Origin: Thermococcus peptonophilus
GTDB lineage: Archaea > Methanobacteriota_B > Thermococci > Thermococcales > Thermococcaceae
Direction of reading: 5' to 3'
DNA: 64,000 nucleotides
NCBI RefSeq assembly: GCF_001592435.1
Contig: NZ_CP014750.1
Coordinates: 310,001 to 374,000 of the forward strand
Of the stretch, positions 21,404-51,401 are shown in pieces (the first letter of the stretch is position 1; each line of letters starts with the position of its first letter). The notes below the pieces were generated by a model. It was not told where the DNA came from. It made no database searches and worked only from the letters and a program-made list of their open reading frames with translations. The position numbers were made by a program, and so were the translations under genes.

Positions 21404-21862
21404 ATGAGGCTGAGCGACCTCGTTTATGTCAAATCCGGGCGAATCCTGATGACCGGGAGCCCCCGGAGAATAGCGAGGATATTCCTCAATGAATGGGCTA
21501 GGGAAGGCTACAAAATCCTGGCGGAAGGGCTCCCCTTCGTCGTTGATGGAGAAGTCTTCATCGGCGACCCCTTGAAGAATCCAGGCTTTGATGCGTACCT
21601 CATATTAAACCCCCTGTCGCGCTCGAGAGAAGAACGGGAAAGACTTTATGACTGGCTGGAAGAAAATCGGGACAAGCTCATTCTCCTCTATGAGACCAAA
21701 TACGTAGGGGACTCAATAACTCGCTATCAGATACGGAACTTCATAGACTACCTCCTCGCCTACCGCAGGGAAACCCTTGGGGCAGAGGTTATAAGGCTGT
21801 ATCGCATTGAAGGTGGCAGAGTAGTTGAGTCCAGGGAGTTCATCCGGAGAAAAGGCCCGTGA
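21404..21862 (+). CDS. Hypothetical protein; 3' end overlaps a C/D box RNA
   Basis: This 152-residue soluble protein is not recognised. It has an alpha/beta pattern (DLVYVKSGRILMTGSPRRIARIFLNEWAREGYKIL, then DAYLILNPLSRSREERERLYDWLEENRDKLILLYE) and no membrane segment or metal motif. The start at 21404 is preferred because a TATA box lies 32 bases before it. The longer reading from 21305 would include the promoter. Its stop codon TGA is part of the C box of a guide RNA on the same strand, so RNA processing and translation compete for the same transcript. Confidence 0.65.
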   Translation: MRLSDLVYVKSGRILMTGSPRRIARIFLNEWAREGYKILAEGLPFVVDGEVFIGDPLKNPGFDAYLILNPLSRSREERERLYDWLEENRDKLILLYETKYVGDSITRYQIRNFIDYLLAYRRETLGAEVIRLYRIEGGRVVESREFIRRKGP

Positions 21863-21911
21863 TGAGTGGCTTCGGGTCCGAGCGGTGAGGACACCAGCTA
21901 TCGCTGAGGCC
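21854..21911 (+). ncRNA. C/D box guide sRNA
   Basis: All elements of an archaeal box C/D RNA appear in order. They are: a GGCC terminal stem (21854-21857), box C GTGATGA (21859-21865), a 12-base guide, box D' CCGA (21878-21881), a 3-base spacer, box C' GTGAGGA (21885-21891), a second 12-base guide (21892-21903), box D CTGA (21904-21907) and the closing GGCC (21908-21911). The symmetric 12-base guides and short spacer are typical of Thermococcales. The second guide is complementary to a GATAGCTGG-containing target, a motif I recall from conserved 23S rRNA. It would direct 2'-O-methylation. Confidence 0.82.
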
Positions 21912-35789: not shown

Positions 35790-36546
<757 letters not shown>

Positions 36547-36573
36547 GGCACCACCACCGAAGGCCATTTCCTT

Positions 36574-37986: not shown

Positions 37987-38853
37987 TCAGAGGTATCTCA
38001 TCATGGCATCTACCACTGCAAGTGCTCTGTATGTGTTCTGGAAGTTTGAGATACCAAGTTCAAGACTCCTCCTGAAGCCACCGTTGGAGTTCTGAAGCTG
38101 ACGTATGAACCAGATGTGCCTCCTCGGACAGGTTGGAGCTTCTTCCTGGAGCTCAAGCCCCCTTGTTGCATAGAAAGTCGGCTCAAGGTAGGGGGGAAGG
38201 CTGTATGGAACCTCCGTGAAGCCGCCCCAGTCGCCGCAGAGCTCACAGTTCCTGAAGTGGGGGCTCTTAGGCGGGCGATAGCCGAGCGCGTAGAGGGTGT
38301 GGAGGGCCTGATAGGTCATCGTGGTCGTTGGTTGTTTCACTCCGAACCCGTTGCCCATTCTAAATTTCATAACGAAGGCCCTTATCCTGTCCCTTTCCTC
38401 ATCGCTTATCGGCTGGCCAATTGCCTTGAACGCCTTAACGACCCAGTATGTAGCCTCAAGGGGCGTCGCAGTTCCGAACTCCTCACTGCCGCCAAGACCA
38501 ACGGCAAACTTGTCTTCGAGGGGATTGTACTTGGTGTAGACGATGTCCACGTGCTCCCTTGCGATGTCCTTCGCTCCAAGCATCGCAAGACCTTCAAGGG
38601 CCATTGCTATGGCCACTACTGCCGTCTGGGGCTGAATCGCTTTTTCAAGAAATTCGATCGTCTTCTCCTTCTCCGGGACTTCGAGGCCGAGCAGGTCGTA
38701 TATCTTGACTGCGTAGTATGTGTCGTTGACGTTGGTGTCATCTAAAACGCTCACGAAGCAGTAGCCTCCGTCCTCGTGTCGCCTCTTCTCGACGTACTCG
38801 AGGGCCTTCTCTACGTTAACAAAGCGTGCAAACTCATCAAGCTTCGAGCCCAT
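37987..38853 (-). CDS. Prenyltransferase/squalene-oxidase-repeat-like protein (first gene of the fluoride operon)
   Basis: This 288-residue protein resembles the alpha-alpha toroid of protein prenyltransferase beta subunits and terpene cyclases. Repeats of the type DGGYCF, GNGFGVKQPTTTMTYQALHTLYALGYRP and NSNGGFRRSLELGISNFQNTYRAL are visible. CELCGDWGGF adds a cysteine pair near residue 205 that could bind metal. There is no signal peptide. GGAGG lies before the ATG, inside a small hairpin below a fluoride riboswitch. Its link to fluoride is therefore regulatory and seen in sequence, while its activity is unknown. Confidence 0.78.
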   Translation of the reverse strand: MGSKLDEFARFVNVEKALEYVEKRRHEDGGYCFVSVLDDTNVNDTYYAVKIYDLLGLEVPEKEKTIEFLEKAIQPQTAVVAIAMALEGLAMLGAKDIAREHVDIVYTKYNPLEDKFAVGLGGSEEFGTATPLEATYWVVKAFKAIGQPISDEERDRIRAFVMKFRMGNGFGVKQPTTTMTYQALHTLYALGYRPPKSPHFRNCELCGDWGGFTEVPYSLPPYLEPTFYATRGLELQEEAPTCPRRHIWFIRQLQNSNGGFRRSLELGISNFQNTYRALAVVDAMMRYL

Positions 38854-38861
38854 CCTACCGC

Positions 38862-38872
38862 CTCCCTCGGAG
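38862..38872 (-). promoter_or_regulatory. Shine-Dalgarno hairpin below the fluoride aptamer
   Basis: On the minus strand CUCC-GAG-GGAG can form a four-pair hairpin that covers the GGGAGG ribosome binding site of the first operon gene. It lies six bases after the aptamer, consistent with control of translation by ligand-dependent folding. Confidence 0.5.
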
Positions 38873-38877
38873 TAGAA

Positions 38878-38938
38878 CAGGCGTCATCAGCCCTTTCGGG
38901 CGGTTCGGGCTCGAAGCCCCGGGCGGACGCCATCGCCC
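38878..38938 (-). promoter_or_regulatory. Fluoride riboswitch (crcB motif)
   Basis: The minus-strand leader contains all parts of the crcB-motif aptamer. It opens with GGGCGATGGCGTCCGCCC, whose ends form the first stem. It continues with GAACC, a GCCC-GAAA-GGGC stem (38891-38902 region) and the conserved CTGATGACGCCTG. The loop GGCGTC pairs with GACGCC (38880-38885) to make the pseudoknot. It closely parallels the Thermotoga petrophila aptamer. A 5-pair hairpin (38907-38920) is inserted between the first stem and GAACC. The controlled operon contains crcB and DUF190, which confirms the call. Confidence 0.93.
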
Positions 38939-38965
38939 GCGCTGGGTTATATAAAGCAACTTTAA

Positions 38966-38973
38966 AAATTTCA
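38966..38973 (-). promoter_or_regulatory. Likely TATA box for the fluoride operon
   Basis: TTTTTAAA on the minus strand sits about 26 bases before the first base of the aptamer, so the whole riboswitch would be transcribed. A nearer TATATAA at 38949-38956 would start transcription inside the aptamer and is less likely. Confidence 0.5.
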
Positions 38974-38991
38974 CGGTCACCATCCTAAAAA

Positions 38992-51324: not shown

Positions 51325-51401
<77 letters not shown>

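Follow-up and report, generated by a model that had tools for sequence, protein, structure and literature searches.

An inserted hairpin in a Thermococcus fluoride riboswitch is complementary to the start region and first codons of the downstream gene

The window, the whole 64,000-nt stretch of Thermococcus peptonophilus DNA that was analysed, carries on its minus strand an apparent operon with the order toroid gene, DUF6062, two small ORFs, CrcB and DUF190. It is preceded by a promoter-like element and a structured leader. The features are as follows, in the direction of reading.

38961..38974, minus strand: BRE/TATA-like promoter element GTGAAA-TTTTTAAA, from the sequence
38921..38938, minus strand: first aptamer stem GGGCG/CGCCC with its loop (38938-38934 with 38925-38921), from the cmscan alignment, pairs kept in relatives
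38931-38926, minus strand: pseudoknot 5′ strand GGCGTC, from the sequence and the cmscan alignment
38907..38920, minus strand: inserted hairpin GGGGCTTCGAGCCC, an insertion in the RF01734 alignment
38906-38902, minus strand: joint GAACC, from the sequence
38899..38904, minus strand: ACCGCC (joint), aptamer core and 5′ side of the second stem, complementary to GGCGGT of the Shine-Dalgarno region
38890..38901, minus strand: second aptamer stem GCCC/GGGC (38901-38898 with 38893-38890), from cmscan and pair counts
3′ of the second stem, minus strand: aptamer end CTGATGACGCCTG, from the sequence
38880..38885, minus strand: pseudoknot 3′ strand GACGCC, canonical in 81/81 distinct aligned rows
38857..38866, minus strand: Shine-Dalgarno region GGGAGGCGGT, from the sequence, with GGCGGT (38862-38857) as partner of the joint
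38841..38852, minus strand: start codon region UGGGCUCGAAGC, partner of the insert, overlapping codons 1-5 (AUG 38853-38851)
37987..38853, minus strand: first operon gene, a 288-aa alpha-alpha toroid (prenyltransferase-like) protein, MGSKL... (PF00432, E 7.8e-12)
37983-37282, minus strand: DUF6062 gene, operon neighbour of crcB
37288-36977 and 36993-36574, minus strand: two small ORFs without assigned function, operon neighbours of crcB
36175..36567, minus strand: crcB, fluoride exporter gene of the same apparent operon (PF02537, E 9.5e-30; TIGR00494 above cut-off)
36170-35790, minus strand: DUF190 gene, operon neighbour of crcB

The leader at 38938-38878(-) is a fluoride riboswitch aptamer of the crcB class (RF01734). 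In a cmscan of the window the family matched at 38946-38871(-) with 50.1 bits and E 6.6e-11, above the curated gathering score of 34 bits, which bears out the original prediction; a search of the T. peptonophilus genome returned this single match. Both stems, the pseudoknot and the conserved joint are present, and the aptamer leads an operon with crcB downstream, as a fluoride-linked 5′ leader should. Direct reading agreed with the parts that had been named (stems, GAACC joint, pseudoknot GGCGTC/GACGCC and end). The extra hairpin at 38907-38920 is also real: in the RF01734 alignment 13 additional bases separate the first stem from the AACC joint. Among 81 distinct aligned rows, the six pseudoknot pairs were canonical throughout (486/486 cells); in 7 relatives a T-A pair has become C-G, a compensated change. 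The second stem was 98.8% canonical, the five pairs of the first stem were nearly invariant and the hairpin itself had 96.5% canonical cells. Folded alone, the 61-nt aptamer gave no significant fold (z -0.89) and its structure was not recovered, as expected since it is a pseudoknot; folding of the full leader gave z -2.89.

The promoter TATA starts 30 nt before the initial G of the aptamer, and a TATA-like octamer begins 27-29 nt upstream in 75 of 102 relatives scanned. This spacing suggests a transcript start near 38938, with an RNA beginning at or very near the aptamer. From this G to the AUG the leader measures 85 nt. The switch-proximal gene, which heads the fluoride operon across the family, encodes the toroid protein and not the exporter. 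CrcB was found in order behind the toroid gene in 72 of 88 toroid loci, as counted on fetched stretches of about 6.5 kb at most, some contigs ending earlier. CrcB is perhaps only partly under the switch, since a separate start site before crcB is reported for T. kodakarensis in the consulted part of PMC4247193. Elsewhere in the window lie an ordinary C/D box guide RNA, sR28 (21855-21909(+)), and an ordinary tRNA gene (51328-51401(-)).

RF01734 gave 103 matches in 88 of the 94 genomes of the family, 88 of them preceding the toroid gene and 15 an NADHdh-family (PF00146) gene. In 85 of the 88 toroid leaders the first stem and TGATGA lie 26-40 nt apart, and these leaders therefore carry the insert, which is absent in L050, L130 and L133. 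The NADHdh-class leaders have no hairpin (15/15). More widely, a contig scan with a pattern for longer-joint aptamers returned at least 120 stretches, of which 80 loci were read. Among the matches listed, hairpins of unrelated sequence fill the same site in many bacteria and archaea, including mesophiles such as Flavonifractor, Microbacterium and Methanosarcina. The R2R paper legend attributes a hairpin to 31% of crcB RNAs (PMC3023696), the text seen giving no position. The extra hairpin as such is already known and is not new. Heat stabilisation, which had been proposed as a possible function, is rejected as the main role because mesophiles also have a hairpin at the site and the second leader class in related hyperthermophiles lacks one. 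In other families of the class, aptamers were observed whose inserts resemble GGCATATGCC, at L145 and L147 (G110, G111) and L146 (G099); the insert of L145/L204 has a weak 7-nt complement directly after the pseudoknot strand.

Within the insert of the window leader, GCUUCGAGCCC (38917-38907; DNA GCTTCGAGCCC) is the exact complement of GGGCUCGAAGC (38851-38841), with 11 contiguous Watson-Crick pairs. This partner runs from the last base of the AUG through codons 2-4 to the first base of codon 5, and G-U pairs lengthen the helix on both sides. In addition, the Shine-Dalgarno region has in GGCGGU (38862-38857) a complement of ACCGCC in the joint (38904-38899). Being collinear and antiparallel, the two pairings make up one interrupted helix over the Shine-Dalgarno sequence and the AUG. 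The hairpin can pair, and its sequence is also constrained by a second partner, at 38851-38841, outside the element originally described. The alternative helix is predicted, is conserved, and excludes the aptamer through the shared bases 38901-38899. Synonymous recoding of codons 2-6 according to the genes' own usage gave an 11-nt run 2,200 times in 100,000 trials; among 938 other ORF starts, taken mechanically from the window and the loci, no run was longer than 8.

Minimum-free-energy folds of the tested leaders with a GCUUCG insert include the start helix, also at 80 C. For 87 leaders (L133, which has no ATG start, being excluded), the mean start-insert pairing probability exceeded 0.9 in 63 at 37 C and, in unconstrained folding, 0.8 in 75 at 85 C. 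The 12 leaders below 0.8 at 85 C are exactly those without a GCTTCG insert. At 37 C, L039 (probability 0.42) and some other leaders favour different folds. We also compared the fold with this helix (OFF) and the aptamer fold (ON) in 85 leaders. The OFF minus ON energy had a median of -5.8 kcal/mol at 37 C (range -11.7 to 1.1) and -4.6 kcal/mol at 85 C (range -8.8 to 0.4), as nearest-neighbour estimates which include a pseudoknot duplex term, ignore Mg2+, fluoride and tertiary contacts, and take the ON state as two separate folds. The 85-row alignment excludes L050 and L130, which have no insert.

The complementary codons are fixed at the nucleotide level. In relatives with a GCTTCG insert, codon 2 is GGC in 74/74 and codon 3 is TCG in 74/74, and these are the top two of 82 conserved four- or sixfold degenerate columns, where the third-ranked column has a top-codon share of 0.74 and the median is 0.44. 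All 68 lysine rows (68/68) use AAG at codon 4, and codon 5, with its third base beyond the helix, varies freely (0.62). This count and the tree leave out one truncated gene. TCG makes up 11% of background use in toroid-leader genes; in genus g3 the background is 6.9% for GGC and 5.3% for TCG, yet 8/8 have GGC-TCG-AAG.

Pairing is conserved accordingly. In 71 distinct rows with the GCTTCG insert, none of 899 start-helix cells was non-canonical, a count partly built in on the insert side because the choice of GCTTCG rows fixes six insert bases, the codons not being part of the selection. All 21 departures from the commonest pair stay paired, 19 of them as G-U. Over all 81 distinct rows, canonical cells reached 96.9% for the start helix and 94.2% for the Shine-Dalgarno helix, against 9-54% and 21-68%, respectively, when the partners were slid by 1-3 columns. 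The Shine-Dalgarno helix is the weaker of the two: 24 of 426 cells are unpaired in rows with the insert, and GGAGGTGAGAG replaces its sequence in several leaders. L082 combines a joint ACUGCC with GGCAGU in the Shine-Dalgarno region, a compensated C-G to U-A change, and its tree neighbours L096 and L112 show the U-G intermediate. Double compensated changes are few since both helix strands hardly vary.

Codons and insert also change together. GGC-TCG is found in 75/75 leaders with GCTTCG and is missing in 6 of the 12 without it (Fisher p 1.8e-6 for 87 leaders, kinship ignored). On the protein tree the codons are lost at five places (G065; G045; G064 and G054; G048 and G059; G022), all of which coincide with altered or lost inserts; given the starred branches, the combined state of insert and codons must have changed at least 7 times. 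Two observations count against the helix reading proposed below: the other 6 of the 12 leaders with altered or missing inserts retain GGC-TCG, and so does G012 (genus g3), where the aptamer is reduced to its 3′ tail. At this locus (L149) most of the aptamer is lost and the tail AGATGGCGCCTATTCTA is left before the Shine-Dalgarno sequence and ATGGGCTCGAAGC, upstream of the ATG at 663. We predict this leader to be a natural deletion that is constitutively on. In G080 (L150) the toroid gene itself is broken, with the N-terminal part missing and an internal stop; no aptamer was found at this broken locus.

We further examined 61 hairpin-bearing aptamers, those among the 80 loci of the matches listed that passed a stricter aptamer pattern and a length filter. 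Long insert-start complementarity occurred only in Thermococcus aptamers with GCTTCG: L160, L162 and L166 have 10-nt runs (0/500 shuffles) and L183 an 8-nt run (p 0.002). The runs of L204 (7 nt, p 0.016) and L225 (8 nt, p 0.046) carry little weight given that 61 tests were made, and no complementarity stood out in L216, a Thermococcus locus with an altered insert, or in the Methanosarcina loci. A general archaeal rule, by which the insert would always be anti-start, is thus unsupported among these aptamers from the matches listed.

The insert-codon complementarity and the nucleotide-level conservation of the codons point to an expression-platform role for the hairpin. We think it likely that the leader is a translational ON switch; its response to fluoride, the direction of this response and the action on translation are what we infer from sequence. 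Without fluoride, the strand GCUUCGAGCCC would quit its own hairpin and pair with UGGGCUCGAAGCU at the start codon and codons 2-5, while ACCGCC of the joint and stem would pair with GGCGGU of the Shine-Dalgarno region, so that the ribosome-binding site and the AUG would both be hidden. This helix excludes the complete aptamer since it uses the 5′ side of the second aptamer stem. Fluoride would lock the aptamer (first stem, insert hairpin, second stem and pseudoknot) and release the start site, so that the toroid protein and, by co-transcription, CrcB would be made. Archaeal fluoride riboswitches are stated or presumed to be translational in the consulted parts of PMC11077080 and PMC8241225.

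A second class of fluoride leader was observed in 15 of the 94 genomes (L032, L034, L051, L085, L109, L119, L123-L129, L131 and L132), upstream of the NADHdh-family (hydrogenase/complex I-like) gene and without the hairpin. All 15 repeat the pseudoknot 3′ strand, GACGCC, within the GUG start GUGACGCC. Codons 5-7 include CCCGGAA, the pairing partner of UUCCGGG in the 5′ flank, with 7/7 pairs in 14 of 15 leaders and 6/7 in L125; in L132, one of the 14, the altered flank ACUCGGG faces CCCGGGU, with two compensated pairs. Pairing of this start strand with the 5′ part of the aptamer had predicted mean probabilities of 0.6-1.0 at 37 C and 0.47-0.94 at 85 C. In these leaders switching would fall to the pseudoknot and not to an insert. 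On balance we favour a reading in which one class of RNA has yielded two codon-embedded, start-blocking designs in one family: a crcB hairpin recruited across the Thermococcaceae as antisense to codons 1-5, and a GUG start that copies the pseudoknot strand in NADHdh leaders.

Eight genomes of the Pyrococcus-like genus g3 (L108, L111, L113, L116, L118 and L120-L122) have an extra conserved stem-loop with the core GARCCGAAACCGGYAACGGRAGTAGG between promoter and aptamer, within about 75 nt upstream of the latter. Its stem varies in sequence yet pairs. Near-copies of the core elsewhere in g3/g4 genomes coincide with sub-threshold Rfam matches to HgcC and sot0042; these near-copies may be TnpB-type guide RNA scaffolds.

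Other explanations of the complementarity were considered. The hairpin could merely strengthen the aptamer, in heat stability or ligand affinity, the codon pairing being incidental. Since the hairpin is conserved and hairpins of unrelated sequence are widespread at the site among the matches listed, the hairpin as such probably serves a structural purpose in some cases. As an account of the toroid leaders we find this unlikely: it leaves codons 2-4 unexplained where GGC and TCG are rare, as in g3, the NADHdh-class aptamers of related hyperthermophiles persist without the hairpin, and mesophiles among the matches listed have it too. It is quite unlikely that the pairing is real with its logic inverted, or that it damps translation constitutively whatever the fluoride level. 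The predicted OFF fold of the window leader is stable (-12.5 kcal/mol at 85 C) and could resist opening; the operon, however, encodes a fluoride exporter, which it makes sense to induce, and ligand binding should oppose a helix that excludes the second aptamer stem.

Fixation of the first codons by the protein N-terminus or by translation efficiency, independently of the leader, would fit the conserved MGSK/MGSE amino acids and the persistence of the codons in G012 without an intact aptamer. Amino-acid conservation cannot, however, fix TCG among six serine codons in 74/74 rows, the constraint ends where the helix ends, at the third base of codon 5, and the codons change only in lineages with changed inserts; we hold this to be very unlikely. 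Transcription termination, as in the well-studied bacterial crcB RNAs, which often overlap terminators (Weinberg 2010, as far as consulted), is most improbable here: the element adjoins the Shine-Dalgarno sequence and the AUG, and the window sequence has no T-run longer than two between aptamer and AUG. Finally, insert and codons form two complementary arms about 55 nt apart near a promoter, as would a DNA operator for a protein regulator. This is scarcely credible given that the element sits within a recognised RNA aptamer and that 19 of the 21 start-helix departures are G-U, tolerated in RNA and mismatched in DNA.

The reading we prefer, an insert-codon helix that hides the start in the absence of fluoride, would provide a concrete expression platform for an archaeal fluoride riboswitch and would explain what the optional hairpin of the class does in one lineage. 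A regulatory RNA would then govern codon choice within a protein-coding gene throughout an archaeal family: it would set the synonymous codons of its own target, and perhaps also the MGSK amino acids. A fluoride-inducible system was reportedly described by Speed et al. in 2018. For tight switching, the native first codons would probably have to be kept in fluoride-inducible constructs made for hyperthermophiles.

We found no description of the insert-codon helix in the parts of the literature searched, which did not take in Speed et al. 2018, and the descriptions of translational archaeal fluoride riboswitches give no structural basis in the sections consulted (PMC11077080, PMC4247193, PMC8241225). 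In T. kodakarensis an 86-nt putative fluoride riboswitch RNA was detected by RNA-seq upstream of TK0513 (PMC4247193). Like the window leader it precedes the gene before crcB and not crcB directly; unlike the proposal made here, the portion seen gives no expression-platform mechanism. The Shine-Dalgarno sequestration model for the crcB RNA of Acidothermus cellulolyticus (PMC3023696 Fig. 6) is likened here by its description only: the ligand-free state likewise hides the Shine-Dalgarno sequence, and the legend mentions no codon-encoded partner. The transcriptional fluoride riboswitch of Bacillus cereus (PMC11077080, as far as consulted) is likewise an ON switch in which aptamer and platform share a strand. 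There it is a pseudoknot strand that joins a terminator, whereas in the window leader it would be the insert and the 5′ side of the second stem, in a helix over the start site. With the RF01734 crcB riboswitches that carry the optional hairpin, the window leader shares the aptamer core, pseudoknot and joint; unlike in the general case, the sequence of its hairpin is bound up with that of the gene's first codons.
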